From: Haloferula sp. BvORR071
GTDB lineage: Bacteria > Verrucomicrobiota > Verrucomicrobiia > Verrucomicrobiales > Akkermansiaceae
Assembly (NCBI RefSeq): GCF_000739615.1
Contig: NZ_BATP01000003.1
Span: forward strand, 496,001-560,000
Length of the DNA stretch: 64,000 bases
Reading direction: 5' to 3'
The notes beneath the pieces were generated by a model, which had not been told where the DNA came from, did no database searches, and saw nothing but the letters and a program-made list of their open reading frames with translations. A program made the translations under genes and the position numbers. Below, piece by piece: positions 9,303 through 64,000 of this stretch (position 1 is the stretch's first letter; each line of letters opens with the position of its first letter).

Positions 9303-10520
9303 ATGCCTTCATGGAAATATCGCCTCTTGCTTTGTGCGGGAACACTGGGCCTAGCGACTTGGCTCGGCTACCGGGCTGAGCGCCACGAGACGGATGCGGC
9401 GGGTAACAACCCGGTGACCTTCCGCTCGGTGGTCAGGAAGGTGATGGCACCGAAGTCGCGGACCAATGCGATCGACCAGCTGAACCAGATTCGCCACGGG
9501 GCGGGGCGCAGCCAGTTGGGAGACCGGGAGATCGCGGAGTGCTGGTCGATCATTCGCGGTTTCACCCTGGAGGATGTGCAGGCCGGCTTGGCGGAGATCC
9601 CGGCGATCACTGATAGAACCGTGAGAGGCAACAACGCCAATCACATCCTGATTGGCATGCTCTATTACCGGTGGACCCAACTCGATCCGGAAGCGGCGGT
9701 GCAAGCGGTGATCAAGCCTGAGAACAATTCCTTCCTCCCGCCGGTAGCCGCGGCATGGGCTGCCAAGGACCCCGAAGCAGCGTTACGGTGGGCAGCCACC
9801 ACCGACTCTGAATATGCACAGAACGTCTTTGGGCGCGCTGCGGGCCGAATGCTCTTCACCCAAGATCCGGAGCATGCCTTGATCAAAGCAACTACGGATT
9901 TCCCCAAGGCGCTGCCCGGCGTGATCGAGGCACTGGTCGAGCGAAGCGATACTGCCGACTCCCGGCGGGCGGTGATTGAGCAACTGAAGGCTCTGCAAGA
10001 TCCAGAGGCGCTCGATTACTACATGAGGCTCTTCTACAACCGGCTCCACTACTACCAGAGCCCTGAGAGCTTGCGGGCCCTGCTCAGCGAGATCGACGAA
10101 AGCGGCCTCCCTCCCGAGAAGTTGGCGGAGGCTAAAAGGAACATCGAGGGCTCCCTGAGGCTCGATGCCCCCGAGGAGGAACTCCCGGCCATTTTGAAGG
10201 CGGGCTCCACCAGTCCCGAGAAGGAGCAGAGTAGCGCCTACAAGACCTGGGCGACGGCGAAGCCTGAGCAGGCAGCAGCATGGGCGATCGCCAACAATCG
10301 CACCGACCTCGTGGCGGAGACTGTGAAGAGCCAAGCGATGATCCAGCTCCGCGCGGGCTGGCAGCCAGCGAAACGCGAAACCGGGAATCTCTGGGTGGAT
10401 GTCTTGAGCCCCCATGTGGAAGCTTGGCAGGCGCAAGACCCTGAAGCCGCCGCAGCCTGGCTCAAGACCATGCCGCTCGACGTCCGCAACCACTACTCGA
10501 AGGATCATGCCACGCGTTAA
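9303..10520 (+). CDS. Array family A protein, copy 1
   Basis: The 405-residue protein has a short basic N-terminus, one TM/signal segment (about 5-22) and a helical body. Repeat motifs include W124-x2-LDPEAA, W152-x2-KDPEAALRW and the C-terminal W375-x3-DPEAAAAW. The FRSVVR block (40-45) and CW at 80-81 sit at exactly the same residues in A2, showing recent common origin. Its stop lies 14 bp inside the B1 gene, so translation is probably coupled. The body is likely periplasmic or surface-exposed, tethered by the uncleaved helix. No catalytic motif is visible. Function unknown; protein-protein interaction is an inference from the repeat architecture. Confidence 0.88.
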   Translation: MPSWKYRLLLCAGTLGLATWLGYRAERHETDAAGNNPVTFRSVVRKVMAPKSRTNAIDQLNQIRHGAGRSQLGDREIAECWSIIRGFTLEDVQAGLAEIPAITDRTVRGNNANHILIGMLYYRWTQLDPEAAVQAVIKPENNSFLPPVAAAWAAKDPEAALRWAATTDSEYAQNVFGRAAGRMLFTQDPEHALIKATTDFPKALPGVIEALVERSDTADSRRAVIEQLKALQDPEALDYYMRLFYNRLHYYQSPESLRALLSEIDESGLPPEKLAEAKRNIEGSLRLDAPEEELPAILKAGSTSPEKEQSSAYKTWATAKPEQAAAWAIANNRTDLVAETVKSQAMIQLRAGWQPAKRETGNLWVDVLSPHVEAWQAQDPEAAAAWLKTMPLDVRNHYSKDHATR

Positions 10521-11802
10521 ATCCATCACTTCCGTCGGCTTGTTTCGGGGCTGTCTGGCGCTGATGGTATTCGTCGGCTCCAAGGTGGGCCGGCAGCTTG
10601 CCCGCTCGGGAATTGTCCATTCCTCTGTCACGGTGAAGAAGCCCGGGCAACGCGAGGCATCGCCCCGGAAGGCAGCCCGGGCCCAAGAGGTGCATGGCGA
10701 AGTGGTGGCAGCTTCGATTCGCAAGCTGAATGCTCTCGTCCTGGGTAGTCCCGACCTCTTTTCCGACTGGGAGACGCAGGCGGAAATGGATGGTGTGATC
10801 GCGAAGCTCTCCGCCGCGGAACTGGCCGAGGTTTTTGCAGCCGTTGGAACAGGCTTAGGCGATATCTATCAGATCCTGAACAGGAAGGTCGGGGCTGCCT
10901 GGATGGCGATGGATCCCGACGCCGCGCTCAAGGCGGCCGTGGCAAAGCAGCATTCGGGAAGAGAGCACTTGGCGGGCATGATCTTTTCAGCTTGGGCAAA
11001 TCAAGACCCCAAGGGAGCACTCGCTTGGTTGAACTCCGCCGAGATACCCGCGGGACTGCCCTTGCTGCGCGAGGATCTCCGCACACTGGCTCTCGATCAG
11101 TTGGTGGAGCGTGACTTCGAACTCGCCACCTCCGAGTTTTTCAAGGCCAGCGGTCCTTCGAATTTTCTCGGTCCCGATGGCCTCTTGGGGAGCTGGGGTG
11201 AAAGGTACGGGGACGATCCGGGGATGCGCGACCGCTTGGTGCAATTCGCGAAGAGCACCGGCCGACCTCAGGACTACGCCAATCTGAACCGCGCGCTGCT
11301 GCACGATTGGCCACAGGAGGACGCCATGGGGATGATGAACTACTTGCAGGAACTCCGATCCTATCTGGAGTCCGACGCAGTGCCAGCGGATGCACGGCCC
11401 GAGGTAGATGCCAAGGCGGTGGGCGCGGCCATCGCCCGCGAATATGACCGCCCGGCACTCGAATGGTGGATGGAACGCTATGGTCAGAGCAAGGAGACGC
11501 CTGCCACTCTCAAGCAGGCGATGCGCGGCTGGGTGGGGCAGTATCCGGATGCGATGATGAATTGGTTCCAAGAGCAGCCGCCTAGCCCGCAGCGGGATGC
11601 GCTCGCCTCCTCGGTGGTTCCCAGCCTGATCACCAAGAAGAGGTTCGCGGACGCGGTGAAGAGCATCGAGAGCATGCAGGATCCCTACTATCGCCAAGTG
11701 TCGGCAGAGCGGCTGAATCTACTGTGGAGCGAGCAGGATGCGACCGCCGCCGCCGCATGGCGTGGTCGTTTGCCGGAGGGGACGCTGCCCGCCTCCAAGT
11801 AG
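10507..11802 (+). CDS. Array family B protein, copy 1
   Basis: A 431-residue anchored helical protein. The ATG at 10507, within the end of A1, matches the homologous B2 start (both begin MPR-[VI]-K and continue with the same ARSGIVH block after the TM), so the longer frame from 10414 is rejected. The diagnostic block is DWETQAEMDGVIAKLSAAEL (87-106). W122-x3-DPDAA and W153-x3-DPKGALAW follow. The C-terminus has a QDPYYR motif, then W-SEQDA-TAAAAW. A1 and B1 form the first of four AB units. The gene converges on D1 with a 12-bp gap. Function unknown. Confidence 0.88.
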   Translation: MPRVKSITSVGLFRGCLALMVFVGSKVGRQLARSGIVHSSVTVKKPGQREASPRKAARAQEVHGEVVAASIRKLNALVLGSPDLFSDWETQAEMDGVIAKLSAAELAEVFAAVGTGLGDIYQILNRKVGAAWMAMDPDAALKAAVAKQHSGREHLAGMIFSAWANQDPKGALAWLNSAEIPAGLPLLREDLRTLALDQLVERDFELATSEFFKASGPSNFLGPDGLLGSWGERYGDDPGMRDRLVQFAKSTGRPQDYANLNRALLHDWPQEDAMGMMNYLQELRSYLESDAVPADARPEVDAKAVGAAIAREYDRPALEWWMERYGQSKETPATLKQAMRGWVGQYPDAMMNWFQEQPPSPQRDALASSVVPSLITKKRFADAVKSIESMQDPYYRQVSAERLNLLWSEQDATAAAAWRGRLPEGTLPASK

Positions 11803-11814
11803 GCAGTCGAATTT

Positions 11815-13149
11815 TCAGCGAATCGCTTTCGCGTTCGCCTCCCAGGCTACCAAACGACGGGCCGCTTCTTCCTTCAGCGGTCCGTCCTGCATTTTCCCCA
11901 GAGCCTGCCGCGCGACATCGGCCTTGCCGTGCTGGTCCAGCGCGGCATCGATGTAGCGAGCGTAGGCTCGTTCCCGCCACGTCTCTTGGCTGATGCTGGC
12001 GATCCATTCAACGGCCACGTCCGGGTAATCCTTCAGGTAGGATTCCACGCCACAGTCGAACAGGGCCTCCGTTTCCTGCCGCACGGGCAAGGAGGTCGCC
12101 CAAAAGGCCGTATTCGCCACTTCCTCACTTGTTGCCCCGCCTTTCAATTTTGATGTCACGTTGGGATCCGCCAAAGAAGCCCAGTCGCCGTGCTGGATCA
12201 TCAGGTCGATGATGCCAGTGGCCCTTGACGAGCCAGGCTTGGAACCAGCCATCGTGCTGAGCAGGGTCTGCACGCGGGCGACCTCGGGCAAGCCCTCGAT
12301 GACGTCCGCCACCTGTTCCGGCGACCTCGCATATAAAGGTCGAGCAAGGAGCATGGCCCAGTAGCGAAGCATGCGCGTGTCATTCAGATCGGTTCTCAAG
12401 AGCGCCTGCTTAACGGGAACATCATCCGTGGGGCGATAGCCTTGAAAGGTGCCATATTGGAAGAGCTGCTCGGCGGACACCTGATCCGGAGGGAGGGCCT
12501 TGAGCATTTGGAGGAAGCTTCCGTAGTTCAGATTGGAGTTCTGGTTCATAAGCGAGACTCCGCAGGAGAGAATCGCTTGATCCCGGTCACGGGCGGAGAA
12601 CTCACCCAGCTTGTCGGCCACGAGACCGGCGTTCTTGGCCGCCACCTCGACGATCCAAAGGCGGCGGAGGAGCCCAGCCTCAATGCCGAAGTTGCCGCGC
12701 TGGATGAGATCCCAACTCGCTTCCGGATTTTCCACCAGAGCGGGGCCCAGTGCGTCCAACAAGGGCCCCATGTCTTCATTCACATAGACCTCCTTGAACC
12801 ACTGTCCATCCGCCGCCAGGGATTCCGCCAAGGCCGCGCGGATCGCGGCTTCCAAGTCCACCTTCGCCCAAAGGGCGAGGAGTTCGCGCTGGGCGAGCAC
12901 CCGATCCTTCGACGCCAACTGCGCCGTGGGCATGGCTTTCCAAGCGCTTGCAAACTCATTGCTCCGCCACTGTGCCAAGGGCCGGTCTTCCTTCAGCTCC
13001 CGGGCCTCGGTCCGAGCCACGGGCGGAGCCAATTCCTCCGCCGGTGCAACGGTTGCAGACGGGGTGTCTGGCTGCCAACTGAGCAGCCCTGCCAAGCCGG
13101 CGACGATCAGATGACTGGCCACCAGAAGAAGACAGGTCCGGGCTTTCAT
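11815..13149 (-). CDS. Array family D protein, copy 1
   Basis: A 444-residue protein with TM/signal at about 5-23 (LLLVASHLIVAGLAGLL) and an acidic, Pro/Ala-rich linker. It shares with D2 and D3 the segment in which RELLALWAKVDLEAAIRAAL precedes a variable stretch, then P-x-A-SW-x-LI-x-RG-x-FG. It starts inside the ATGA overlap with C1, so C1-D1 is a coupled unit, as C-D is elsewhere. The C-terminal third repeats W-E-x-ANAKA-type helices. No enzyme motif is present. It is the most diverged of the three D copies. Confidence 0.87.
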   Translation of the reverse strand: MKARTCLLLVASHLIVAGLAGLLSWQPDTPSATVAPAEELAPPVARTEARELKEDRPLAQWRSNEFASAWKAMPTAQLASKDRVLAQRELLALWAKVDLEAAIRAALAESLAADGQWFKEVYVNEDMGPLLDALGPALVENPEASWDLIQRGNFGIEAGLLRRLWIVEVAAKNAGLVADKLGEFSARDRDQAILSCGVSLMNQNSNLNYGSFLQMLKALPPDQVSAEQLFQYGTFQGYRPTDDVPVKQALLRTDLNDTRMLRYWAMLLARPLYARSPEQVADVIEGLPEVARVQTLLSTMAGSKPGSSRATGIIDLMIQHGDWASLADPNVTSKLKGGATSEEVANTAFWATSLPVRQETEALFDCGVESYLKDYPDVAVEWIASISQETWRERAYARYIDAALDQHGKADVARQALGKMQDGPLKEEAARRLVAWEANAKAIR

Positions 13150-14717
13150 GGATCCTTGGGAGAAAGCTCCTGTTCCACCTTGGTGGCTTGGGCGGGGTTC
13201 TTTTTCTTGGCCTGTCGGACTATGCCTGAAACCGCGGCATCACGGTCTGCTCCTGCTGCCATCGATTTCACCGTTTGTTGGTAGTTGTCGCCGAAGCGCT
13301 CTGCATAAGCAGAGGCCTTGATCTGGAGTGCTTCGGCCCGCTGCTCCTTCTCTTGCGGAGTCGTCGCGGCTGGCAGTGCGGAGAGGTAGACCTTGAAGAG
13401 TTCAGGTGAGACTCTGGAGAATCCGCGCTGGAGCACATCGTATTGGAAGGCTCGCTTCTCCTCCGCTGGCAGGCCCTCGATCAGAGCTCGAGCTTGCACA
13501 GGATTTTCCTCCACGAGTTGACGAAACAGGGCCTTCCTGAAGGGCGCATCACCCGCTTTTGCCGTGGCGGGTAGGGCTGCCCGCATGGCCACCAACACCT
13601 CGTCTGAGGAGGCGGCCCCGTGGCGGAATTCGTAGCGCCAGTCCCGGCCTTCCTTCAGCACGCCAGAGATGTCCTCGGCTAATAATTCCGTCTCAAGGTC
13701 CCCACGAGTGGAGCTTGTGCGCCCTGGCGCTTCTGCCATCGCGCCTACCCTGAGCGCCAGATCAGCCCCAGAGCCCTTCTGGACAGCGGTGAGGGCTTCC
13801 TGTCTCGTCCGCTCGGCCACGGTCCCCTTCAAATCTCCGTTCCGGGTCCTCTCTAGCAGCCACACGGCGGCCTCTGGCGAGGATCTTGCGAAGCCGCGCA
13901 GAAGCTCGATTTGGTCGAGTTCCTTCTCCTGACGGTTCGCCATTTCCACCAACGATTCCCGTTCGCTAAACGGCAGGGCTTCCGCTGCTCGCAGAAAGGG
14001 AGTTCGGCCAATGCCAGTCCAGGGGTTGCGGGACTCGGCCGCTTGGGTGAAGTAGGACGCTTGCTCCGGTACGGCCATCATTGCCGAGTGCAACTTCTCC
14101 AAGGCCGCTACCCCTCCACCGGATTTCATCTCTGCCACTAAACCATCGCAAAAACTCCCGGCCGTCACCGGCGTCTTGATCAGCCAAGGCAGGCAGGCCG
14201 CAAGTCCGCGTTCCGCGATGAGATCCTTGCAAACATGCTGCCGAAGATCGAACACCACCGCGACGTTTTGACTACTTTCGTCTTTGAGCACGAAATCCAT
14301 CGCTCCACCTGGATCCTGCCTCATCCAATGCAGCATCCTCACCTCCAACCTCGCAAGCGCTTTGGCCTCCTGCTCTTTCGTCCGCATGACGGAGAAGGGC
14401 CGAGCTTCTTTCTGGATCTCTTCCACGGCCGCGGCTTTCACATCCTTGGCCACCGGCAGTGACGCTTTGAGTTCGAGGTATCTTGAATCAGCGTCCGGCT
14501 CGCTCTTCGTGCGGGAAGCGAGGAAGTCTTTCAAGAAACGCTGACCTTTCCCGCCATCCATGGTCTGGGTGCGGGAGTTGGTCTTGGCAGGGAGCGAGCC
14601 TGACTCCCATTCCCGATGCTGGGAGCTTGCCGGATCACTCTTGTATCTGGCTGCACCGTATACAACCGCGAACACGCAAGCATGCGAGAGCAGGAGCAGC
14701 GGAACTTTGCGGTTCAT
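13146..14717 (-). CDS. Array family C protein, copy 1
   Basis: A 523-residue protein; the ATG at 14717 is chosen because MNRKVPLLLLSHACVFAVV gives the usual array N-terminus, while the longer frame (to 14807) adds basic junk. The family C signature GRDWRYEFRHGAASSDEV is present, followed by the block FRQLVEENPVQARALIEGLP shared with C2 and C3. It overlaps D1 by the ATGA quartet. It lies downstream of a broken H gene (gap 120 bp), possibly sharing its promoter. Function unknown. The long helical body suggests a scaffold or binding role rather than catalysis. Confidence 0.87.
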   Translation of the reverse strand: MNRKVPLLLLSHACVFAVVYGAARYKSDPASSQHREWESGSLPAKTNSRTQTMDGGKGQRFLKDFLASRTKSEPDADSRYLELKASLPVAKDVKAAAVEEIQKEARPFSVMRTKEQEAKALARLEVRMLHWMRQDPGGAMDFVLKDESSQNVAVVFDLRQHVCKDLIAERGLAACLPWLIKTPVTAGSFCDGLVAEMKSGGGVAALEKLHSAMMAVPEQASYFTQAAESRNPWTGIGRTPFLRAAEALPFSERESLVEMANRQEKELDQIELLRGFARSSPEAAVWLLERTRNGDLKGTVAERTRQEALTAVQKGSGADLALRVGAMAEAPGRTSSTRGDLETELLAEDISGVLKEGRDWRYEFRHGAASSDEVLVAMRAALPATAKAGDAPFRKALFRQLVEENPVQARALIEGLPAEEKRAFQYDVLQRGFSRVSPELFKVYLSALPAATTPQEKEQRAEALQIKASAYAERFGDNYQQTVKSMAAGADRDAAVSGIVRQAKKKNPAQATKVEQELSPKDP

Positions 14718-14837
14718 GGCATCACGAAGGGGATGACATGCGGATCTTGCAGTTCTCCTGGAGATATTCAAGGGGGCTCTTGCATGGTTCGAGCTTCGCC
14801 CACTCATGGACGGGCTTTCTCCGGCGCGGCTGCTCTC

Positions 14838-15296
14838 TCATCGAGCAACTCCCCTGCCCTCACGCGAAGCTTCTCCGTTGGCAATCACCTCCCAGACCGA
14901 ATCCGGGTGAAGGGAGACCACCTGAAGCAGCGCAGTGCGCACCAAGGCGAAGCGACGCTCCTCCGGAATACCGGCGACCAGGTCATCAAGCGCACCCGGA
15001 TCGGCAATGAGAACGGGAGCCAGCCACTCGGCGACCTCCTCATCCTTGGCACCACTCGCGATGAGAGCTGCCACTTTGGCCCGGGCTTCCTTGGTCCGGC
15101 CAGCAAGGGCGGCGAGTCTGATCTTGGCCGGTTCGTCTCCGAGCGGGGCCTTCGCCTCCTCCTCTTTCACAGGCGCAGCCACGATCCTCTTCTCGGGGCT
15201 GGAAGTGCGGTGAGCCAAGGGACCCAAAAGCGAGCCGGCGCCAATGGGCAAGAGCCAACGCAAAGCGATGCAGAGCGGCAAAGGGTCTGACGCCAT
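14838..15296 (-). pseudogene. Truncated family H paralog
   Basis: Encodes about 152 residues matching the N-terminal third of the intact H gene (49768-51069). Shared blocks are RLAALAGRT-x-EAR-x(3)-L, then LAPVL-x-ADP-x-LD and VPEERR/IPEERR. After WEVIANGEA the similarity ends and a stop follows within a few residues, against 433 residues in the intact copy. Only 120 bp separate it from C1, so the C-terminal two thirds are deleted rather than frameshifted. AGAGGA lies eight bases before the ATG at 15296, so the fragment may still be translated as a short anchored peptide. Confidence 0.7.
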
Positions 15297-15467: not shown

Positions 15468-16673
15468 ATGATAGCGTGGAAGTATCAGCTCCTCCTCGGG
15501 CTCGGAACCTTGGGCCTCGCGGTATGGTTCGGCTACAGCGCTGAGCACCACGTGATGGACTCCGCTGGGAACAAGCCAATGACCTTCCGCTCGGTGGTTA
15601 GAACGGCCATGGCGCCAAAGACCCGCAGAGATGCCTTGGCACGCCTGAACGAGCTCCGGCACTTGGCTGGGAGGACTCCTTCGACTACCAAGGAACTCGC
15701 TGAATGTTGGTCGATCGTCCGCGGCCTCTCAGTCGAGGACATCCAAGCCGCCTTGGCGGAGATCCCGGAGAAACCGCCGCGCGAGGTGAACGCCGAGCTG
15801 ATCAACATGCTCTATTTCCGCTGGGGGCAAGTTGATCCGCAGTCAGCCGCCCAACAGGCAAGTCAAGCGAACGCCGACATTGCCCCAATCATGGCGGTCG
15901 CAGTAGCCTGGGCATCCAAGGATCCAGAGGCAGCCCTGCGCTGGGCTGCAACAACCGACGACCGCCGGGCGAAGAGCTTGATCGGTCGGGCAGCAGGAAA
16001 GGCGTTGGCCCAGCAGAATCCGGATGATCCCTTCGCGAAGGCGACTTCGATTCTTCCCGAATCTGCCAGCGGAGTTGTAAGCGCGATGGCAGACCGGAGC
16101 ACTTCAGCGGAAGCACGAAGGAAGGATCTTGCCCGATTGAAGGAGATGCCGGACACGAAGCACTTGGAAAGCTACCTCAGGATGCTCGTCTCGAATCGCT
16201 ATGGCCAAGATCAGGAAAGCCTACAGGCGATGCTCGATGATGTGGGAAACGCGGGCATTCCGGCAGAAATGACAGCGAAGTTCCGGGGGGATATCAGAAG
16301 AGTCATCGCTTTTCGCGCCCCGTCGGAGAGTTTAGGAACGGCTCTCCAGGAAGGGGCTGAAACTCCAGAAAAGCAGCAGCAAACCTACCGCTCTTGGGCA
16401 GTCGCCAATGCCTCGGAATCCGCCAAGTGGGCCGTCGCCAATGGGCGCGCTGATCTCGTGGCGCACACCGTAAAGGAGGCATCCCTGGGACTTCTACGCG
16501 ATGGCTGGCAAGAGGGCGCGGGGAATCCCTACAGTCCATGGACCAAAGGGGTAGTCGCCCAGTTCCAAGCTTGGAACGAAGCCGACCCAAGTGGTGCCGG
16601 CGCATGGCTCAAGACGATGCCGGGAGACCTTCGCAGCTATCTAACCGAAAGCGACAGCCATGCCACGCATTAA
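15468..16673 (+). CDS. Array family A protein, copy 2
   Basis: A 401-residue near twin of A1, colinear through residue 120: WKY at 4-6, FRSVVR at 40-45 and CWSIVRGLSVEDIQAALAEI at 80-99. The ATG at 15468 is chosen over 15432 because it aligns with the A1 start. KDPEAALRWAATTDD (about 151-165) repeats the A1 motif. The C-terminus ends with W-x(3)-DPSGAGAWLKTMPGDL. It overlaps B2 by 14 bp, the same length as A1/B1, so the A-B unit was duplicated as a whole. It is divergent from the broken H gene across about 170 bp, which should contain both promoters. Confidence 0.88.
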   Translation: MIAWKYQLLLGLGTLGLAVWFGYSAEHHVMDSAGNKPMTFRSVVRTAMAPKTRRDALARLNELRHLAGRTPSTTKELAECWSIVRGLSVEDIQAALAEIPEKPPREVNAELINMLYFRWGQVDPQSAAQQASQANADIAPIMAVAVAWASKDPEAALRWAATTDDRRAKSLIGRAAGKALAQQNPDDPFAKATSILPESASGVVSAMADRSTSAEARRKDLARLKEMPDTKHLESYLRMLVSNRYGQDQESLQAMLDDVGNAGIPAEMTAKFRGDIRRVIAFRAPSESLGTALQEGAETPEKQQQTYRSWAVANASESAKWAVANGRADLVAHTVKEASLGLLRDGWQEGAGNPYSPWTKGVVAQFQAWNEADPSGAGAWLKTMPGDLRSYLTESDSHATH

Positions 16674-17967
16674 GCCCCTACTCTCCCTCGCGCTCCTGTC
16701 AGGTGCTCTGGCTCTGATCGCCTGTCTGGGTTCCCGCGGCGGACGTTTCCTCGCACGTTCGGGGATCGTGCATCCATCGGGGCCCTCATCTGCTCGCAAG
16801 CCGATCGATGAGAGCGGAGCGGCGAAGGACAAAGCCGCCGAACAAGAACTACTACGTGCGGATCTGGTCGAGACCTCGATCAAGAGGCTCAAGGCGCTCG
16901 CCGGGAATTGCCCGGACCTGCGCGAGGACTGGGAAACCCAGGCGCAGATGGATGGCGTCATTGCCAAGCTCTCCGCCCGCGAATTGGCAGAGGTCTTTGC
17001 GGCAACCAACTTTCAACTTGGGGACCGTACCGCTGTTTTGCCGATGAAGATTGGCACCGCGTGGATGGCTCAGGACCCGGACGCAGCGCTCAAGGGCCTT
17101 GTCGAATGGTCGGAGCGAAGTGGCTACGGAGGCTATCTGGTTGCTGCAGTCTTCGGGAATTGGGCCGGCGAAGCACCGGAGGCGGCGCTGGCATGGCTGA
17201 ACTCCGCGGAGTTTCCTGCGGATCCCCCCACCCTGCGCGAGCAACTCCGGGAATCGGCGCTCTATACCTTGGCCGAGCGCGACTTCGACCTCGCTACCGC
17301 GGAGTTTCTCAAGATCACCGGCCCTTCGTCATCCCGCTCGGATTCGCAAACGATCATGAGCAACTGGGCGGCGCTCCACTCCGATGATCCAGTGATACGG
17401 AGCCGCTTGATCGACTTCGCCAAGTCCACCAGCAATCCCAAGGACTACGCCGAGCTCAATGCCGGGCTGCTCCAGCGCTGGCCGCAGGAGGACGCCATGG
17501 GAATGATGAGCTATCTCCAGGAACTGCAATCCTACCTGGAATCGGATGCCGTGCCCGCCGCGGCCCGTCCTCAAGTGGATGCCAGCGCGGTAGGCGTGGC
17601 GATCTTCCGCGAGTATGACGGCCCGGCGCTGAAGTGGTGGATGGAGCGATACGGCGATAGCCGGGAAACCCCAGCGCCGATGAAATCCGCGATGGCAGAC
17701 TGGATGAAAAAGTATCCCGACAAGGCGATGCAATGGTTCCAAGAGCAGCCAGCCGGGCTACAACGCGACTCCTTGACGACCTCGGTGATTCCCTCGCTGA
17801 TCACCATGAAGCGCTTTGACGATGCGGCGAAAAGCATCGAGAACATTCAGGATCCGACTCTCCGGCAAAATAGTGCGCAGCGCCTGAACATTCTCTGGAG
17901 CGAGCAAGACGCCGCCGCAGCCAAGACTTGGCGGGAGAGTCTTCCCACCGGCACCCTCCCGGACTAG
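16660..17967 (+). CDS. Array family B protein, copy 2
   Basis: A 435-residue protein, close to B1 throughout: DWETQAQMDGVIAKLSARELA, W-x3-DPDAALKG, then LAWLNSAEFPADPPTLREQL and ERDFDLATAEFLKITGPS. It has a TM near residues 6-24 and a Ser/Ala/Lys linker. The C-terminal part keeps the IQDPTLR motif and a W-SEQDAAAAKTW repeat. Start and overlap geometry copy those of the first AB unit. Nothing is truncated. Divergence from B1 is spread evenly rather than concentrated in one domain, suggesting an old duplication that both copies survived. Confidence 0.88.
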   Translation: MPRIKPLLSLALLSGALALIACLGSRGGRFLARSGIVHPSGPSSARKPIDESGAAKDKAAEQELLRADLVETSIKRLKALAGNCPDLREDWETQAQMDGVIAKLSARELAEVFAATNFQLGDRTAVLPMKIGTAWMAQDPDAALKGLVEWSERSGYGGYLVAAVFGNWAGEAPEAALAWLNSAEFPADPPTLREQLRESALYTLAERDFDLATAEFLKITGPSSSRSDSQTIMSNWAALHSDDPVIRSRLIDFAKSTSNPKDYAELNAGLLQRWPQEDAMGMMSYLQELQSYLESDAVPAAARPQVDASAVGVAIFREYDGPALKWWMERYGDSRETPAPMKSAMADWMKKYPDKAMQWFQEQPAGLQRDSLTTSVIPSLITMKRFDDAAKSIENIQDPTLRQNSAQRLNILWSEQDAAAAKTWRESLPTGTLPD

Positions 17968-25239: not shown

Positions 25240-25917
25240 ATGAGCAAGCGAACACGCCCACCTCTATTTCCGCGCCTCTTGTCCTTGTGGCTCGGCCTGC
25301 CGGTGCTGATCTTCTTCCTCTGGGCCTGGCGCGATTCCATGGTTCACTCGTTCGCGTTCAATCTGAAGCACGGCAAGACCTTCGTCATGGCCTGGCCGCC
25401 TCTTGAGCGCATGCCAAGCCCGGCGACGCCCTCCGTACCGCTCGCCTACGAACCGAACCTTGATCTTCCCTCCCTCGACGTCCCGGCATGGGAGGAGTTC
25501 GGGAAGGAGGTGGCCTACTTTAATTCGAGCATTCCCGAGGACAAACGCATGCCGCTCGCTCCCCACCGGCCTCTTGAGCTGCGGCCCGACGATCTCTACC
25601 GCAATTCCAATCGCACCGCGATGCAGCCCTATCTCGGGCTTGGCAGTGCTGAAGGAGTCGTTTGGTTCTCTTCTTGGATCGCCCCGGACTTCCCGAAGAC
25701 ACCGGAATGGACCTACCTCCACAAGTTCTCGGGTGCTCCTTGGTTCGCCGCCTTGGAGTGGACGCACAACGAGCAATTCCAAATCCACAGCCTGCGCATT
25801 CCCTACTGGGCAATCGTTTCCGCCTATACCTTGGGCTGGTTTGCCTTCTTGGCTTGGAGGCGGCGGCGGCTCAGGAAGCAACTGTCGCTCATGTCGCAGG
25901 ACGCCCCGTCATCCTGA
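25240..25917 (+). CDS. Family M two-TM protein, copy 1
   Basis: A 225-residue protein with TM1 at about 13-31 (WLGLPVLIFFLWAWRDSM) and TM2 near 190-208 (IPYWAIVSAYTLGWFAFLAW), followed by a very basic tail. Between them lies a ~150-residue, Pro/Trp-rich, probably periplasmic domain. The two ends match M2 (38318-38734), whose middle is much shorter, so the membrane helices are conserved and the loop varies. It precedes the A4-B4 unit by 85 bp on the same strand. Build suggests a membrane partner; no enzyme motif is visible. Confidence 0.82.
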   Translation: MSKRTRPPLFPRLLSLWLGLPVLIFFLWAWRDSMVHSFAFNLKHGKTFVMAWPPLERMPSPATPSVPLAYEPNLDLPSLDVPAWEEFGKEVAYFNSSIPEDKRMPLAPHRPLELRPDDLYRNSNRTAMQPYLGLGSAEGVVWFSSWIAPDFPKTPEWTYLHKFSGAPWFAALEWTHNEQFQIHSLRIPYWAIVSAYTLGWFAFLAWRRRRLRKQLSLMSQDAPSS

Positions 25918-54812: not shown

Positions 54813-54821
54813 GGTTTTCAA

Positions 54822-56552: not shown

Positions 56553-56563
56553 CGAAAGGTACC

Positions 56564-57742
56564 TCACGGTGAGATTCCCCACGCGGCCCTCACCATCTTG
56601 CTCCAGCGTGCCTGGATTTTTGCGTTAAGCGGAGATGGATTCTGCTCCGCCCAATCATGCTCCACTGCGGCCAGCACTTGCTGCCGTTCCGGCAAGGACA
56701 CCTGCTCCCATGAGGCATCGAGCTTATTATCAAGGCGCGTTTCCTCTAGCACTTGGAACAGGTACTCCCCGCGTCGGCCCGCAAGGTCCACCGTTTGAAG
56801 GGCTGGCGCGGAGATTTTCCCTTCCGAGCTTCCCGCCACCGCGAGCCATGCTTGATCCACAAGTTCCGGCCTCACGCGCGAAATGGCATCAAGCGCTTGG
56901 CGCCGCGAAGCATCATCCATCTCGGCGCTGGCAATGGCCCGCAAGGTTCCGCTCACCTCCGATTCGTGATACTCCTTCTCCAGATACCTTGGATTGGCCG
57001 CCAGCCACTCCGCTGCTTCCAGCGGTGAGCGCTTCGCCCATGCCGTCAGCGTGTCGTCGGTTTCGGTATATGGGAGTTTTTCGGTGTTCGCCAGATAGTC
57101 CAGCAGCTTGCGGAAGTCGAAATCTTTGGCGAACTCAACCATCATCATCTCGTTGGAGTCATCCTGCGGGATTTGCTGGAAAGTCTCGATGAGCTTGTCC
57201 GCAGACACGCTGGCGGCAGCCAAAGAGCACTCGCTGATCACCCCTGAGGCCCAGGCAGGGCTTGGGAATTCCGCGCGATGAGCCTTCCACTCCTCGTAGG
57301 CCTTCCAAGGATCACGGAGAGAGAATTCGTAGAGTATCCGGTACGAGACACGTTCCCGCACCTTCGGGTCCGCGACCTCCAGCGCTTGGCTCCAAGCCTG
57401 CCAACCGAGCCGGTCAATGAGCGTCTTGACCACCTCACTGCAAATCTCCGGCTTTCCCTCTGGATTCTGCTCCAGCCATTGCCACAGAGCTTGGGTCTCG
57501 CAAGCCGCCAGGGTACGGCGCAGCAACACCAAACGCCGGGTTGTCGTATTGACCTTCTCCTGTGTTGAGTCTCCGGGGGTGTTTTGTTCGGTCTCATGCC
57601 GCAAGGAAGACAGCGTCGAAGGGACCTCCCCTACGGTCACAGGGGGAACCGTCGAGAACCGTCGCGCTCCCAGCCAGCAGCCGAGAAGCAGCGACGCGCC
57701 GCAGGAGGCCACAAAGATCACTCGCTGCATCGACCTCCTCAT
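56564..57742 (-). CDS. Array protein L2 (392 aa), partner of L1
   Basis: It starts in the ATGA overlap with L1. N-terminal segment VIFVASCGASLLLGCWLGAR; VASC and LLGC resemble lipoboxes but lie inside the hydrophobic stretch. The body has SLRDPWKAYEEWKAHRAEFP, AKDFDFRKLLDYLANTEKLP (the FDF motif of families F and G), and WAKRSPLEAAEWLAANPRYL. The FDF motif suggests descent from the G/F line, though overall similarity is low. Function unknown. Confidence 0.85.
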   Translation of the reverse strand: MRRSMQRVIFVASCGASLLLGCWLGARRFSTVPPVTVGEVPSTLSSLRHETEQNTPGDSTQEKVNTTTRRLVLLRRTLAACETQALWQWLEQNPEGKPEICSEVVKTLIDRLGWQAWSQALEVADPKVRERVSYRILYEFSLRDPWKAYEEWKAHRAEFPSPAWASGVISECSLAAASVSADKLIETFQQIPQDDSNEMMMVEFAKDFDFRKLLDYLANTEKLPYTETDDTLTAWAKRSPLEAAEWLAANPRYLEKEYHESEVSGTLRAIASAEMDDASRRQALDAISRVRPELVDQAWLAVAGSSEGKISAPALQTVDLAGRRGEYLFQVLEETRLDNKLDASWEQVSLPERQQVLAAVEHDWAEQNPSPLNAKIQARWSKMVRAAWGISP

Positions 57743-58737
57743 TCAGCCTCCTTCCCGCTATCTTCTGATATAAGCATGGGGTAGTTACTCGCGAGGCGCT
57801 CGCCAAAGGTCGAAGGCCGCTTGCAATACTTGGTGACTGCAACAGCCACTTGGCGGAATTGCTCGGGCGGTAGTGTATCGAGCAAACTGCGGATTTCGTC
57901 GCCCTTCACCTGGTCGTTGATCGCAACTCCGAGAACGCCCAAAATCTCCGAATCGGAACTTCGCGGCCACGCCAAAGCCGCTTGAAAGGCTTCGGAGGCA
58001 TCTATCTTGGCCCAACGATCGAAGAGATTGCGAATTCTCACCCCTTGCTCCGAGAGTTCCAGTGCAGCACCACTCCTGAGCCACGGTTCGATGTCCTGTT
58101 TCTCGTCGAGATAAAGCGCAGCATCATCAAAAGGGTCTCGCTGCGCTCCCAAAATGAGCTCCCAAGGAACCTGTCGACATGCCGCAAGGAATGCAGCATT
58201 CCCGGAGGCTGCCTTTCCTTGCAGCATCCGCAGCATGGCATCCTTTTCACAGAACACTGGCCTCTGGCTCGAAACCACTGCCTCGAAAGCAGCATCAGGC
58301 TCAGCGTCCGCCCATCCATCCATCGCGGTAAAGCAGAGCTGTGGATCGATCGTCTCGAGCCACCGGATGGCTTCCTCTCCTTCACGCCGGCCCAATTCTT
58401 TCGCCGCCGCGGCCAGCCGCTGCTCGAAGTCTTCACTGGTGCTCCATTCGGTATCTCCCGGTAGCGCCGCGAGTGCCTTTTTCAACGCCGCGATCTTTTC
58501 GCGCAACCCGGAGGCGGGGAGGCTGCCGTTTTCAGTTCCCGCTTCCTTCCGGAGTGCATCCCACTCCTTTTCGAACTCGCCGAGCGCCGCCGCAACATCG
58601 CTCCGCGCAGCCACTTCGCCGCGCTCCGCCGTCCGGATCTCCAAGGGCGCCGAGGGTGAAATGCCAGCTTCGCCAGCCGCCACGAAGTAGCCAATGACAC
58701 CAAGAAGCGGAGGAATGGCCCAAAGGAGGGGTCTCAT
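57739..58737 (-). CDS. Array protein L1 (332 aa)
   Basis: The N-terminal TM (LLWAIPPLLGVIGYFVAAG) has almost no linker. Charged helices follow (LGEFEKEWDALRKEAGTENG), then GREGEEAIRWLETIDPQ-type and ADAEPDAAFEAVVSSQ array repeats and RWAKIDASEAFQAALAWPR. It is shorter than most array proteins. First gene of the L1-L2 pair, divergent from G3 across 223 bp. One copy in the window. Confidence 0.84.
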   Translation of the reverse strand: MRPLLWAIPPLLGVIGYFVAAGEAGISPSAPLEIRTAERGEVAARSDVAAALGEFEKEWDALRKEAGTENGSLPASGLREKIAALKKALAALPGDTEWSTSEDFEQRLAAAAKELGRREGEEAIRWLETIDPQLCFTAMDGWADAEPDAAFEAVVSSQRPVFCEKDAMLRMLQGKAASGNAAFLAACRQVPWELILGAQRDPFDDAALYLDEKQDIEPWLRSGAALELSEQGVRIRNLFDRWAKIDASEAFQAALAWPRSSDSEILGVLGVAINDQVKGDEIRSLLDTLPPEQFRQVAVAVTKYCKRPSTFGERLASNYPMLISEDSGKEAE

Positions 58738-58960: not shown

Positions 58961-60205
58961 ATGAAAGCCCTGCTGCCTCTCTTCGCATCCGGTCTCATCA
59001 CGGGCGGAGCCGTGGCTTGGCAAAAGAATCGCCCCCCGGCAGTGGTCCCCGGGGTCGCTAGCGCCCCGCAGTCCCCCGTTTCGAAGGCACCGCCCAAGAA
59101 ATGGGAGGTCCGCAACTTTATCGATCTGATCAACGACGCACCCGAGCTCGACGAGTCTTCCAATTTTTTGGCACCACAACTTACGGACTGGAGCGACGCC
59201 GAGCTGCAGAAGGCGCTCAACGAGGCCTTGGCCAGTCCCGACTGCGTGCTCGACGGCAGCTCCTCCAAGATCCTGGCCCGTATGCTCGTCGCGGAGTGGA
59301 TGCGGCGCGATCTGACATCGGCCTTGGCGTGGTTCGAGGCCATTCCTTCCGAGACCATGAGGAGCGAGTTGGCTTCCGCGGTCAGCTTCTACTGGCCCTT
59401 GGACAAGGCGGAGGAAGGCTTGGCTTATGCTGTGACTCATCCGGAGTTCTTCGCCGGGAACGGTGGCACACACGCTTGGAAGATCGTGCACCGCGCCTTG
59501 GAGTCCGCCGCCAAACGCGGCCCGGAAGCCGTCGTAGCCTGTCTAGCGACGGTCCGTGAAAGCAAGCTACCGATCAGCGGCGGAGATCTCCAGTTCCCCG
59601 CGAATTTCGATTTTCAAACCTTGGCCAATAGTCAGGAGGTCGAGGAGCTCTGGAAGAAGGGCCGAGGTATTTTCTTCGCCGAGGCCTGGCTAAAGCAGGA
59701 CCGCAACGCCGCATTCGACTGCATCGCGGCCGCCAGCAAGAATCCCGCCGCACAGCTCTTGACGCTCAACTCCGTCCTGCCGGCGGCGGAGGTCACTGAA
59801 CGGACCACCCTGCTGGCCGGCTGGATCGACGGCGCGGACGAAGCCCAGCGTGAGGAACGAATCGAGGATATCCTCAAATCCTGCTTGGTTCGCCCTGATG
59901 CGCTGGAGACCCTTGGAAAGACCTTGAAGGATCCCGCTGATCGCGACCAAATCCACAGCGGTGCCCTGCGAGGAATTCGCACGATCGGAGCGAAAACTGC
60001 ATTCGCCCACCTCGAAGCCTATGGAGATGGGGCGCAGCGTTTGGATCTCTTGGAAACCTTCGAACCCCTGCCCCCCTTGCTGATGCCAAGGGGCAGAATG
60101 ACAGCAGAAGAGGTGAGTTCCCTGCGCGAGAAGCTGGGCTCATGGGGTGCCTCGCCGGAAAGGACCGAGAACATCATCACCAGGCTTCAAGGGATCCTCA
60201 AATGA
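58961..60205 (+). CDS. Array family G protein, copy 3
   Basis: A 414-residue protein with signal/anchor MKALLPLFASGLITGGAVAW. WSDAELQKALNEALASPDC, VAEWMRRDLTSALAWFEAIP and YWPLDKAEEGLAYAVTHPEF align with G1 and G2. The FDF motif is FPANFDFQTLAN near residue 210, then AWLKQDRNAAFDCIAAASK. The C-terminus LGSWGASPERTENIITRL is typical of G. It overlaps F3 by ATGA. Located about 13 kb from the other G-F units and on the opposite strand. Confidence 0.87.
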   Translation: MKALLPLFASGLITGGAVAWQKNRPPAVVPGVASAPQSPVSKAPPKKWEVRNFIDLINDAPELDESSNFLAPQLTDWSDAELQKALNEALASPDCVLDGSSSKILARMLVAEWMRRDLTSALAWFEAIPSETMRSELASAVSFYWPLDKAEEGLAYAVTHPEFFAGNGGTHAWKIVHRALESAAKRGPEAVVACLATVRESKLPISGGDLQFPANFDFQTLANSQEVEELWKKGRGIFFAEAWLKQDRNAAFDCIAAASKNPAAQLLTLNSVLPAAEVTERTTLLAGWIDGADEAQREERIEDILKSCLVRPDALETLGKTLKDPADRDQIHSGALRGIRTIGAKTAFAHLEAYGDGAQRLDLLETFEPLPPLLMPRGRMTAEEVSSLREKLGSWGASPERTENIITRLQGILK

Positions 60206-61488
60206 CCGCGCCTCCAATCAAACAATCCCTGCTAGCCGCGGCCGCCCTGATCTCTGGTCTAGGACTGGGCTGGGCCGCGGTTGCGGCAATGCGAGAGCCC
60301 ACTAACCCGCCCATCACCGGCCCCGCCTTGACTGGTCGCCAAGTTTCCGCCCTCCCTCCAAAAGATGTGGCAGTAGGCGCAGCCCGCGATTTTCAGTCCC
60401 TGAAGCGCCACTGGGACCGGGCAAAGACCCTGTCAGGTGAAGTGCCTCAAGCGATTGAGCGCATGGATGCGCCCGAATTGAAAGAATTGCTGCTCGCCCT
60501 CAGGAATGAATCCCAAGCCACCAGCTCGACCGAGCCCTCCAAGCGCATGGGCGAAGAGATGATGCGGGAGCCGCTCCGCGACGCAGCGGTAGGCGAACTC
60601 TATCATCGGGATGCAGAAGGCAGCCTCAAGTGGGCGGAAGCATTGGGGGCCGAGGGCAGCATCCTTTTAGAGCAACTGCTGCGGACCGCGGCTAAGGAAG
60701 AACCAACTTTTGCGAAAACCTGGATTGACCGGCTGCGCCCGTCCAAGGGCGAGCAGTGGGCGAAGCAGTTCTGCGCCACCGCATGGCAGGGATCCACAGC
60801 CCGGAGTGCCGCTGACATGCTTGAGGTCGAGAAGCTATACGAAGGGCAACTCGGCAGCTTCAGCTTCCGGCCGGAAGAGATCGCGGACAACTTTGATTTC
60901 AGGCGTTACCTCAAAGAAACGGCCAGCCCTATCTCCCTGTCCGAGATTGCAAAATTCTGGGCAGCACGTGACCCCGATGCAGCTTTCCAAGGTGTGGGCG
61001 AACGCGCGACCGCTCAGGACGGTTCCGGGACCCTCTTCGGCGCGATCCTCCAAGGCATGGCGGCGATGAAGGGCGACGCTGCCGCAGCCCAATGGATCGC
61101 CGGCAAAGTGGACACCTTGCCCGGGGACCGCCGCGCCGAGGCGATCGGCTGGCTGCTGCCCAGCGGCAACGGAACCGGCGAACGGGTGGCAACCCTAATG
61201 GAGGCCCTGCGGCGGGATCAAGACCGCATCGCTCTAGCCAAGAGCGCCATCGATCCTTTCGGGATGAATCCGATGTCAGAACAGGTCAGCATCCAGGCAC
61301 TAGGTTATCTAAAGGTCGACCAGCAGGTAGCCACGCTCCAATCCGCCGCGGGAAACTATCGGCAGCTCATGGCCAGCGATCCAAGATCAGGGCAGCGCAT
61401 CCAAGACGGTTTTGAGAGGATCATGGCAAAGCTGGAGCTGACGGAAGATGCCAAGGCACAGGTTAGAGCGGGATATGCACCGGAATGA
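60202..61488 (+). CDS. Array family F protein, copy 3
   Basis: A 428-residue protein with TM SLLAAAALISGLGLGWAAVA. ERMDAPELKELLLALRNE, AVGELYHRDAEGSLKWAEAL, DNFDFRRYLKETASPISL and WAARDPDAAFQGVGERA mark it as F. The closing FERIMAKLELTEDAKAQVRA matches the F1 and F2 ends. The LEVEKLYEGQLGSF segment equals LEIEQLYNSKMFGK of F1, so F1 and F3 are closer to each other there than to F2. Confidence 0.87.
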   Translation: MTAPPIKQSLLAAAALISGLGLGWAAVAAMREPTNPPITGPALTGRQVSALPPKDVAVGAARDFQSLKRHWDRAKTLSGEVPQAIERMDAPELKELLLALRNESQATSSTEPSKRMGEEMMREPLRDAAVGELYHRDAEGSLKWAEALGAEGSILLEQLLRTAAKEEPTFAKTWIDRLRPSKGEQWAKQFCATAWQGSTARSAADMLEVEKLYEGQLGSFSFRPEEIADNFDFRRYLKETASPISLSEIAKFWAARDPDAAFQGVGERATAQDGSGTLFGAILQGMAAMKGDAAAAQWIAGKVDTLPGDRRAEAIGWLLPSGNGTGERVATLMEALRRDQDRIALAKSAIDPFGMNPMSEQVSIQALGYLKVDQQVATLQSAAGNYRQLMASDPRSGQRIQDGFERIMAKLELTEDAKAQVRAGYAPE

Positions 61489-61607: not shown

Positions 61608-62633
61608 TCAAAAACCGCTGAAATAACTCTCCGCCAAGCGCTGGTTCCGCTGCGCGGGAGTGAGTTTGTCAAAGGCCGTCGCACGCTTGAAGCCGGCGAT
61701 GAATTCGGCGTCCAGCTCGTGGTTCAAGCGGTCGAACTCGAAGGAGGCGTTCGTGATCCCGTTGTTTTCCCCCATCCTCACGACGGATGAGCGGACCGCC
61801 ATCATCACCTCGTTACCGCGCCTGTCCTCGGCGAAGCCGACGTCGCGGAAAAAGTCGTCCATCTTCTCGATCATTAGCGCCACATCGGCCTTGCCACTGT
61901 GAATAAATGACGCGGGATCCAAAGATGCCCGATACTCGCGCGCGGTCCGATGCGCGACATTGACCGCATAGTCGTACCAGTGGAGTTCCAGCATCTGGTA
62001 GCCGCGATCGTCGCCGAGGATCCCGCAGGCGGCCTTGAATTCGGCGGCGATATCATCCCGGCTTGAGCGGATGTCCGGAGCAGAAGAGGACCTCTGGAGA
62101 GCTGCCGCTGCTTCGTCGGTGAGGCCGAGTTCCGAGAGCGCGTGGCTGAGCATGAGGTGGGCGATCTTGTTGTCCGGATCGATCTCCACGTACTTGCGTG
62201 CCATTGCCAGGCGCTCCCTGTTATCGGCGGCATAGGTCGTCAGGATCTGGAACTTGAGCGGGGAATCGGGCAGCGCGGCAATATCGTCCAGCTTGCGGCC
62301 TTCGATGCACAGCAGGACGAAATACAAGGACGAGGCCGTCCGGCCCCTCGCTTGAAGGAATTTCTCCACCTCGGCGGCACTGAGGTGATAGGGCGCGGCA
62401 TCGGAATATTTCGGGCGCTCCGATTTCTTGTATTCCGCAATGGCCTCCTTGACCCGCGACTCCATGTCGTTCTTCGAGTGTGAATCCCGGGAAGCCGTGC
62501 TTACTCCCACTCCATGAGCGCCGACGTCCTCTTTCTCCTGCGGACCAGCCCCAAAGCGGATCACCAGGAAGAAAACCAGCCCGACGAGACAAAGAAGCAA
62601 AGTTAGCTTGGGCTTGGCGGTCACGACGGGCAC
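61608..62633 (-). CDS. Array family J protein, copy 3 (TPR-like)
   Basis: A 341-residue protein with a GTG start. TM LTLLLCLVGLVFFLVIRFG. KFLQARGRTASSLYFVLLCI and RERLAMARKYVEIDPDNKIA then HLMLSHALSELGLTDEAAAAL are TPR-like and match J2. The C-terminus is RLAESYFSGF. It stands alone, converging with F3 (119-bp gap) and divergent from the last gene. Function unknown; TPR-type proteins usually mediate protein contacts. Confidence 0.83.
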   Translation of the reverse strand: MPVVTAKPKLTLLLCLVGLVFFLVIRFGAGPQEKEDVGAHGVGVSTASRDSHSKNDMESRVKEAIAEYKKSERPKYSDAAPYHLSAAEVEKFLQARGRTASSLYFVLLCIEGRKLDDIAALPDSPLKFQILTTYAADNRERLAMARKYVEIDPDNKIAHLMLSHALSELGLTDEAAAALQRSSSAPDIRSSRDDIAAEFKAACGILGDDRGYQMLELHWYDYAVNVAHRTAREYRASLDPASFIHSGKADVALMIEKMDDFFRDVGFAEDRRGNEVMMAVRSSVVRMGENNGITNASFEFDRLNHELDAEFIAGFKRATAFDKLTPAQRNQRLAESYFSGF

Positions 62634-62889
62634 AGCCTAACAGAGCGCCCCCACCGGGAGAAGGCTTTTCAAAACGGCAGGAAATCCCTGCGATAGCCAA
62701 GCCAAGACGACGCGCAGATGCCGGAGCTTCAGCAAGCCTAGGCCTGTCCCGGACGAAGGAATTCACCAGACCGACATCAGAGCTTCACACTGCGACGCCA
62801 GAGAACTACCCCCCTCTTCATCGCCACGGCGGCGGAGTGGCTGGTCGACTCCACTTCACTCCACAAGACAAGGTATCCTGATACGGGTC

Positions 62890-64000
62890 ATGAAATCGCC
62901 AACCCTCCTCTCTGCCGGAGCCGCAGGAATGATCGCGATGCTCTCTCTGGGTTCCTGCAAGAAGTCGGACTCCGAGCCTAGTGACAGCGGCAGTGGTAGG
63001 GAGAAGTCTTCGCTGAGACTAGGGAATGCTTCCAAGCAACAGGCCACAAGTTTGCCGGCACAGGGTGGCGCCAACGGCTTCCGGCAACAAGTGAGCCGCC
63101 TGCAGACGTCGGACTTGGTGGCCCTTTGGCAGTCGCTGGATTCCGCCGGACTGAGCAAGGACGAGAAGATCGAGCGCCAGCGAGAAATCATCGAACGGCT
63201 GACTCAGCTCGGAGAGTTTGACGCGGCAATGAAGCTTGCCACCAGCTATGGCCAGGGCGAGTTGCGCTATGCCTTGGTATCCTCATTGACCGCCGGGTCG
63301 CCTGAAGCACTTGCCAGCCTGCTGGAGCGCACACGAGACTCCTCCCTTTCGCAGGCCGACCGCAACGCCCTGTTATGGGGGATCCAGGAAAACATCGGCA
63401 GGTCTGGCGGCTTGTCGAAGATCACAACGTTCCTCGCCGCGAGGCCAAACCTCTCCGGGGATGAAGCCAACGCGATCGGGGCCGGAATCTCTTCCAGCAT
63501 CGATCTGCGGAAGACACCCACTCAAGAACTCTCCCCCGCGGACCTGAAGGCCAACCACGGCATCGCGGAGGCCCTGTTGAAGGACGCTTGCGCCGCCTAC
63601 CCCCAGTTGGAGGAGAGGCTGGTCCAATCTTTCCTGATGCAGGCTGCCGATGTCACCCCTTTCGAGTGCTGGAAGACCTTGTCGGAACACTACGAGCGAC
63701 TGCTGGATGGAGATGGGCGGCTCCTGCGCCTGAAGGAGCTGAGCGAATACATGTTCGCCGAAGACCCCAAGCGCGCACTTACCGCCATCACGGAAATGCG
63801 CGGCAAAAGCGAGTATGCGGCGCTGCTGCGGGAGGGCGGAGCCACTTGGGCCAACTCCGACATTAGCGCGGTGGAGGCCTGGTTCGCCGACACCGGCAAA
63901 GACCTGCCGAAAAGCGAGGCCGACCAAGTGGCTCACGGCGTCGCCCGCTTCCTGGGAGAAGACGGCCGACCCGCCGAAGGCTGGAAATGGGTCGGCAAGA
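62890..64000 (+). CDS. Array-type lipoprotein, cut by the right window edge
   Basis: The frame from ATG 62890 is open to the end of the window (370 codons). The signal peptide ends MLSLGSC-KKS, a plausible lipobox followed by a Ser/Asp-rich stretch, so a lipoprotein. The body has RQREIIERLTQLGEFDAAMK and MFAEDPKRALTAITEMRGKS, then NSDISAVEAWFADTGKDLP, all close to the array repeat. Its C-terminus is not in view. Divergent from J3 across 256 bp. Confidence 0.82.
   Translation, partial: MKSPTLLSAGAAGMIAMLSLGSCKKSDSEPSDSGSGREKSSLRLGNASKQQATSLPAQGGANGFRQQVSRLQTSDLVALWQSLDSAGLSKDEKIERQREIIERLTQLGEFDAAMKLATSYGQGELRYALVSSLTAGSPEALASLLERTRDSSLSQADRNALLWGIQENIGRSGGLSKITTFLAARPNLSGDEANAIGAGISSSIDLRKTPTQELSPADLKANHGIAEALLKDACAAYPQLEERLVQSFLMQAADVTPFECWKTLSEHYERLLDGDGRLLRLKELSEYMFAEDPKRALTAITEMRGKSEYAALLREGGATWANSDISAVEAWFADTGKDLPKSEADQVAHGVARFLGEDGRPAEGWKWVGK

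Follow-up and report, generated by a model that had tools for sequence, protein, structure and literature searches.

What is the role of 38 adjacent genes, most of which encode similar membrane-anchored proteins? The question is raised by a 64,000-nucleotide stretch of the 7.8-Mb genome of Haloferula sp. BvORR071, hereafter the window, which covers bases 496001-560000 of a contig of 580 kb. The genes form an array at positions 9303-64386, of which the last 386 bases lie outside the window, and 33 of them encode large proteins of 332-638 residues. An earlier note, made from the nucleotide letters, described more than 30 paralogs of one extracytoplasmic helical module and proposed strong selection for many variants. 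Our analysis related this module to the outer domains of extracytoplasmic function (ECF) sigma factors with a transmembrane (TM) segment. The note was silent on this link, even though one such fusion (45925-47841) is inside the array. We tentatively explain the array as expanded two-gene periplasmic solenoid units, which would be related to tethered-sigma receptors and would function in sensing or scaffolding at the envelope. We give this reading somewhat less than an even chance.

Genes were called with our own hexamer coding-score model trained on the window; starts are approximate, and five were placed by hand. Proteins of 330-520 residues are encoded by 31 of the 38 genes, in line with the size given in the earlier note for nearly every gene. 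One more has 523 residues, and one is a 638-residue sigma fusion. The remaining five encode a truncated copy (152 residues), small membrane proteins (225 and 138 residues), a 217-residue protein and a 2210-residue SIR2/TPR protein. The described basic N-terminus, TM or lipoprotein signal and low-complexity linker were also found. Nearly all 33 large proteins contain an N-terminal hydrophobic stretch, usually after 1-4 lysine or arginine residues and no acidic residue, and a linker rich in P, A, G, S, T, K, E, Q and D. The exceptions to the anchor are 62929, with a short lipoprotein-like start only, and 45925, with an internal TM segment. The motif W-x(2-5)-DP-x-AA-x(2)-W, around which the earlier note had placed the helical repeats, occurs eight times in seven of the 38 genes, compared to 0.0 per shuffled set and none in 34 control genes. 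This is far above chance, but the motif is not present in every protein.

Within-window BLAST grouped the large proteins into families A-J plus single genes, and the predicted minimum of eight recurring sub-families is exceeded. Profile-profile comparison with relatives added placed 24 of the 33 in one superfamily, which is composed of families A, B, C, D, E, F and G and the single proteins 56564 and 57739. The links include A-B (7.5e-38), E-F (2.5e-16), B-C (2.4e-13), B-D (1.8e-9) and B-E (2.8e-9); the B profile, as enriched, contains at least one partner from a sigma operon (L068 9117). Three more large proteins are probable members: J (73%), 20913 (81%) and 62929, which is related to 20913 at 4e-8. 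Profile comparison gave no link or a borderline one for the other six, namely two H proteins, three I proteins and 48647. Their best superfamily matches are 6.3% for H, 17.7% for I (to J only) and 18.4% for 48647. The controls reached at most 3.1% over 240 reversed-profile comparisons and 0.7% for three unrelated proteins. One module in many variants is a description that fits 24 proteins, or 27 with the probable members. Single genes for proteins of 567-724 residues with many DPEAAxxWA-type repeats are also superfamily members (L041 8450-10549; L080; L082; L094; L062).

In a scan of all 33 large proteins with Pfam and NCBIfam (the latter with the window part of 62929 only), the cut-off was passed solely by the sigma part of 45925. 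The superfamily would give a name to 24-27 unannotated proteins of one 55-kb stretch. The top Pfam score below cut-off is that of TPR_19 in the family I protein 61608 (21.4 of 25 bits), and family I appears to lean to TPR. Family H is presumably similar to a planctomycete family with a terminal DPxTGKP-type motif. A sequence search against solved structures gave no significant match, and PADLOC gave none for the four solenoid proteins submitted. Seven proteins compared with PHROGs yielded a single match, of an A protein to a family of unknown function (E 0.0016).

Structures were predicted for one protein each of families A and E. The AlphaFold2 model of the A protein 15468 is an all-helical solenoid with a mean predicted local distance difference test (pLDDT) of 78.3, built from seven sequences. 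That of the E protein 58961, built from three sequences, is also an all-helical solenoid (mean pLDDT 71.2). The models support the all-helical structure proposed earlier, and for these two families they do not show the unrelated folds that would have refuted a common module. The best structural matches of both are engineered repeat proteins, beta-catenin, importins, transportins, CAND1 and SF3B, with Pumilio in addition for E. These matches are weak and generic, and their scores would indicate a common arrangement and no more. The predicted fold class is that of HEAT/ARM alpha-solenoids, but no Pfam HEAT or ARM model passed its gathering cut-off in the 33 proteins (best HEAT_2, 15.1 of 27.7 bits, and HEAT_Nup120, 17 of 29). 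The predicted fold points to binding rather than catalysis.

The superfamily genes are organized in two-gene units. Ten pairs of the window have the order A>B, D>C or E>F; the two genes overlap by 4-14 nucleotides (nt) in nine of them and are spaced by 1 nt in one. Among 67 same-strand adjacent superfamily pairs less than 120 nt apart at all loci read, A>B was found 20 times, D>C 8 times and E>F 6 times, and the reversed orders C>D and F>E never. B>A neighbors account for 6 of the 67 at spacings of 6-101 nt, and look like junctions between units. Distances between A proteins and between B proteins were compared for 22 hand-picked pairs, of which those at L071 and L095 are spaced by more than 120 nt. 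They co-vary (r = 0.929), to a degree reached by none of 2000 free and none of 5000 within-genome permutations, indicating that A-B pairs are inherited as whole units.

Our analysis also revealed a repeated connection to sigma factors. The product of 45925-47841 matches Pfam Sigma70_r2 (48.5 bits) and r4_2 (37.4 bits) over curated cut-offs and has no region 3; with TIGR02937 at 76.7 bits, it is an ECF sigma factor. A TM segment at residue 236 and an ectodomain of about 380 residues are fused behind region 4. The whole genome contains 68 ECF-like matches over cut-off, of which 17 are in frames of at least 499 residues, one of these being the primary sigma factor with regions 1.1-4. All of the other 16, 45925 included, have a TM-like hydrophobic stretch after region 4 (residues 226-253), and are referred to here as tethered sigmas. 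In 11 cases their ectodomain was recognized by the A, B or repeat-protein profile, and a superfamily gene is next downstream on the same strand in 10, with a 4-nt overlap in seven. Sigma genes were collected from loci picked for a solenoid match or a long frame, 18 in total, with the 16 as the complete set of at least 499 residues; L133, L142 and L143 (frames of 434-462 residues), which gave no sigma match with a one-sequence model, were excluded. A profile of the sigma ectodomains matches B (9.3e-21), A (4.3e-14), G (8.4e-9) and E (4e-7), and the best of 240 reversed controls is 0.014. The window protein was left out of this profile, together with one protein with a short ectodomain, which avoids having one G protein on both sides.

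The connection recurs outside this genome. Of 20 loci picked for long frames or matches, four, in genus g8, contain a putative sigma-solenoid fusion. The partner gene is directly downstream in L176, L177 and L192, and one gene lies between in L175. Related arrays were found in G019 and G064 of the same genus, in G006, where it is smaller, and in G061 of another genus. Three of the four larger arrays, in the window, G019 and G064, contain a sigma gene, and in G064 an operon of fusion and partner is located in the array or borders it (L083). At L053 (992-9308, minus strand), seven genes form a one-strand run that includes J- and 48647-like genes, and the seventh is a sigma-TM gene without a large ectodomain. 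Another same-strand gene is located 169 nt beyond this run.

Since a sigma factor works in the cytoplasm and these proteins have a single TM segment, the ectodomain has to be outside. By homology the array solenoids probably face the periplasm as well, and no argument for this position is stronger.

A common motif was found upstream of the tethered-sigma genes. It emerged from a Gibbs search of the stretches that precede the 16 long genes and is TTnnTGTCCnnTT-like, with 13 of the 16 sites at -34 to -51. Its score is 233, and the lowest of the ten runs (213) is above every one of 12 control sets (160-176), which had three restarts compared to ten for the real set. At a threshold set to the 95th percentile of controls, the motif was found before five of seven untrained tethered-sigma genes versus one of 17 plain ECF genes in the same genome (from the best 30 of 68 ECF loci, 28 with a usable sigma gene). 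The two untrained genes below threshold, L049 and L145, both have a shifted copy by eye. The best site before 45925, which is part of the training set, scores 13.4 at -78. The motif looks like a promoter class of this group and suggests that tethered-sigma genes may be autoregulated. By eye, a CGGAT-type second element follows about 16-19 nt after the motif in several cases (e.g. L138 7340-7384, L043, L140).

Words and dyads were examined in 33 upstream stretches, comprising 22 from the array (45925 included), 10 from other tethered-sigma genes and one other. No dyad was found. GATCCG occurs in 10 (shuffle maximum 9) and GATCCGG in 7 (maximum 5). The former compares to 8 of 231 other upstream stretches, a difference equalled by one of 60 label permutations. 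It is present in 5 of the 22 array stretches and 5 of the 11 others.

ECF sigmas with C-terminal regulatory extensions are known, including ECF41 with SnoaL_2, ECF42 with TPR and the CorE type, and the control of ECF sigmas without a nearby anti-sigma factor has been raised as open (PMC8103513). The tethered sigmas resemble these types in having a putative regulatory domain behind region 4 in place of an anti-sigma factor, and the domain of ECF42 is also a helical repeat. Unlike them, a TM segment separates the sigma part from the helical domain, which must hence lie outside the cytoplasm; the next gene often encodes an anchored solenoid partner, and sigma-less copies are found in a large array. 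With membrane-anchored anti-sigma factors of the RseA type they share a partner in the operon and a single-pass protein through which a periplasmic event would govern the sigma factor; here, however, the tethered protein is the sigma itself. No cytoplasmic anti-sigma domain precedes the TM segment in the large array proteins except 45925 and 62929, as the hydrophobic stretch is at offset 1-15 and the few residues before it leave no room for one. Neither an array of this kind nor sigma-solenoid fusions were described in the literature that we searched (including PMC8103513 and PMC7406223), with subscription papers and the 2021 ECF reclassification outside its scope.

These observations can be combined in a model. 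Each unit would produce two membrane-anchored proteins with alpha-solenoid domains towards the periplasm, which are paralogues of the tethered ECF sigma ectodomains and of their anchored operon partners. The two solenoids of one unit may interact with one another as well as with a ligand or protein of the envelope. In sigma-headed units, this binding event would set whether the tethered sigma reaches RNA polymerase, either through proteolytic release or through some change at the membrane. The sigma may then activate its own operon via the shared motif. The array units, mostly without sigma head or motif, could be separately expressed co-receptors, decoys or scaffolds beside the few sigma-headed members.

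It is equally plausible that the array proteins are periplasmic scaffold or assembly proteins, for example of envelope or surface complexes, that function outside sigma signaling, and that the sigma fusions just borrowed a suitable binding domain. Several results weigh against a sensing role and some of them favor this alternative. Solenoids are scaffolds for binding in general. In a family-wide search, 27 of the 30 best loci (one per genome) have no sigma gene near the superfamily relative, compared to three that do; sigma-less superfamily genes are the commoner state. The tethered-sigma motif is present before just three of the 22 array operon heads (14717-, 22166- and 55242+) and missing at 19, a result that argues against the array being jointly controlled by tethered sigmas. 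The best array site, at -42, belongs to 55242, the sigma-less sibling of the array fusion. Outside the array, the motif precedes 2 of 27 superfamily genes, where about one is expected in each set at the 95% threshold. Taken together, the array does not resemble a component of the tethered-sigma regulon. Among the 16 tethered sigmas themselves, five have no independent superfamily match, and six genes, including the array's own fusion, have no superfamily gene next downstream. No sigma gene was seen in the stretches read of the G061 array. A one-to-one pairing, with A equivalent to the sigma ectodomain and B to the partner, was considered and is unsupported, as most of both resemble B most. Finally, co-divergence of neighbors can be explained by linkage alone and is no proof of binding. 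A point against a scaffold role outside signaling is the repetition of the sigma link, which was found in 11 ectodomains and 10 downstream genes of one genome, in another genus and in most of the larger arrays. A sigma-free scaffold role and sigma-related sensing are, on balance, as likely as each other.

A bolder form of the sensing model is rather doubtful. Here the array would be part of an undescribed many-input, few-sigma envelope-sensing architecture in Verrucomicrobiota, in which tethered ECF sigmas with their own promoter class read paired solenoids and the array supplies interchangeable sigma-less pairs.

The domain that passes no curated cut-off in the array is nevertheless the outer part of most long sigmas, and further superfamily copies are present outside the array in the same genome. 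The fused and paired genes, together with the shared upstream motif, make the control of ECF sigmas without anti-sigma factors directly testable.

A third explanation, a variable recognition array, is clearly unlikely. Its paralogues would be turned over by duplication and diversify towards many partners, such as phages, neighboring cells, prey or polymers. Consistent with it, copy number and family content differ strongly among arrays. A and B are present in four and four copies in the window, seven and seven in G019, one and one in G064, and one and two in G061. An A-B block repeats at about 6.17-kb spacing (9312-17682), one copy is truncated, and a predicted SIR2/TPR gene, large and defence-like, is located between array blocks. 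However, the gene-wide ratio of nonsynonymous to synonymous substitution rates (dN/dS) is 0.13-0.35 in nine comparisons, a rough figure with dS of at least 1 in seven of the nine (saturation). At this gene-wide level, selection is purifying overall, and neither positive selection nor the strong selection for variants that the earlier note had suggested is supported. A mobile element or phage origin was also rejected, as no related protein was found in viral contigs, phages or plasmids. The viral contigs gave 26 and 7 pattern matches with the A alignment and one repeat protein, none of which was confirmed, and one A protein used as query had no match in phages and plasmids. The PADLOC result for the solenoid proteins was likewise negative.

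Neutral pile-up of extra copies of little function at a duplication-prone locus, to which the truncated copy and the very unequal copy numbers could be attributed, is most unlikely given purifying selection in all nine comparisons, the retention of orthologous units across species (E-F, 69%/69% to G064) and the presence of several array families in a second genus.

The locus itself is conserved. The window and G061 arrays end beside the same four genes, for an ArsR-like regulator (labeled by eye), a small protein, an aquaporin and a low-molecular-weight phosphatase (the last two from Pfam matches), with identities of 58-85%. In G019 the four genes are inside the array, and H and an E-like gene are located beyond them. 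Clustering in relatives, which the earlier note had named as a check, is confirmed for these arrays, but members also occur as single genes in this and many related genomes. Relatives of the A profile are present in 76 of 97 genomes sampled within the family, in none of 10 genus g3 genomes, and in 25 of 194 phylum-wide at E 1e-6. Five named records contain family A relatives: three verrucomicrobial metagenome-assembled genomes, Luteolibacter marinus and L. pohnpeiensis. The contig of the window contains a second small cluster with two A-B pairs (L040 8551-13615, minus strand) at a distance of about 180 kb. The features of the array are listed in Table 1.

Table 1. Genes of the array, with positions in the window.
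Position	Strand	Feature	Basis or remark
9303..10520	+	Family A anchored solenoid, first of pair 1	14-nt overlap with next gene; BLAST family and profile comparison
10507..11802	+	Family B anchored solenoid, second of pair 1	BLAST family and profile comparison
11815..13149	-	Family C anchored solenoid, second of pair 2	BLAST family and profile comparison
13146..14717	-	Family D anchored solenoid, first of pair 2	BLAST family and profile comparison
14838..15296	-	Truncated family J copy, 152 residues	Match confined to N-terminal part of 49768
15468..16673	+	Family A, first of pair 3	AlphaFold2 model
16660..17967	+	Family B, second of pair 3	BLAST family and profile comparison
18154..19377	+	Family A, first of pair 4	BLAST family
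19364..20440	+	Family B, second of pair 4	BLAST family
20913..22166	-	Probable superfamily member q20913	81% to B, E 1.1e-5
22274..23584	-	Family C, second of pair 5	BLAST family
23586..25076	-	Family D, first of pair 5	BLAST family
25240..25917	+	Family K small membrane protein, recurs in arrays	BLAST family
26003..27208	+	Family A, first of pair 6	BLAST family
27201..28517	+	Family B, second of pair 6	BLAST family
28577..30082	+	Family D, first of pair 7	BLAST family
30079..31380	+	Family C, second of pair 7	BLAST family
31563-38195	+	2210-residue protein; regions: SIR2_2, TPR-like, HTH_upstream_double_PIN	PADLOC: match to ThsA-type SIR2 models
38318..38734	+	Family K small membrane protein	BLAST family
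38743..40011	-	Family H anchored protein, no homology link to superfamily by profile comparison	
40467..41702	-	Family F, second of pair 8	BLAST family
41699..42991	-	Family E, first of pair 8	BLAST family
43257..44528	-	Family F, second of pair 9	69% identity to G064 orthologue
44525..45754	-	Family E, first of pair 9	69% identity to G064 orthologue
45925..47841	+	ECF sigma (regions 2, 4)-TM-solenoid ectodomain fusion, family G	Pfam, NCBIfam; ectodomain matches B at 7e-8
47852-48505	-	217-residue anchored protein just after sigma fusion, opposite strand	PHROGs: no match
48647..49771	-	Anchored protein 48647, second of J>48647 pair; borderline membership	Profile comparison
49768..51057	-	Family J, probable superfamily member	Profile comparison
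51189..52502	+	Family H	Identity to array copies: 61% G019, 66% G064, 31% G061
52665..53753	-	Family I anchored protein, no homology link to superfamily by profile comparison	
53766..54821	-	Family I	BLAST family
55242..56552	+	Family G without sigma head	Tethered-sigma motif score 9.7 at -42
56564..57730	-	Superfamily member q56564	96% to F, E 2.2e-9
57739..58737	-	Superfamily member q57739	95% to F, E 6.3e-8
58961..60205	+	Family E, first of pair 10	AlphaFold2 model
60202..61488	+	Family F, second of pair 10	BLAST family
61608..62624	-	Family I	Sub-threshold TPR match
62929..64000, continues to 64386	+	Probable member, relative of 20913	

To the left of the array, where the earlier note had placed a tRNA-Ser fragment, a tRNA match at 8500-8566 (+) is below threshold (21.2 bits versus a gathering value of 29), and an ARAGORN search found no tRNA. 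The stretch is apparently a decayed tRNA. A second tRNA-like stretch was seen by eye near 8735-8785. The family K proteins (25240-25917 and 38318-38734, with relatives at L083 and L084) have, by eye, hydrophobic stretches near both ends, and 11 copies are present in G064.

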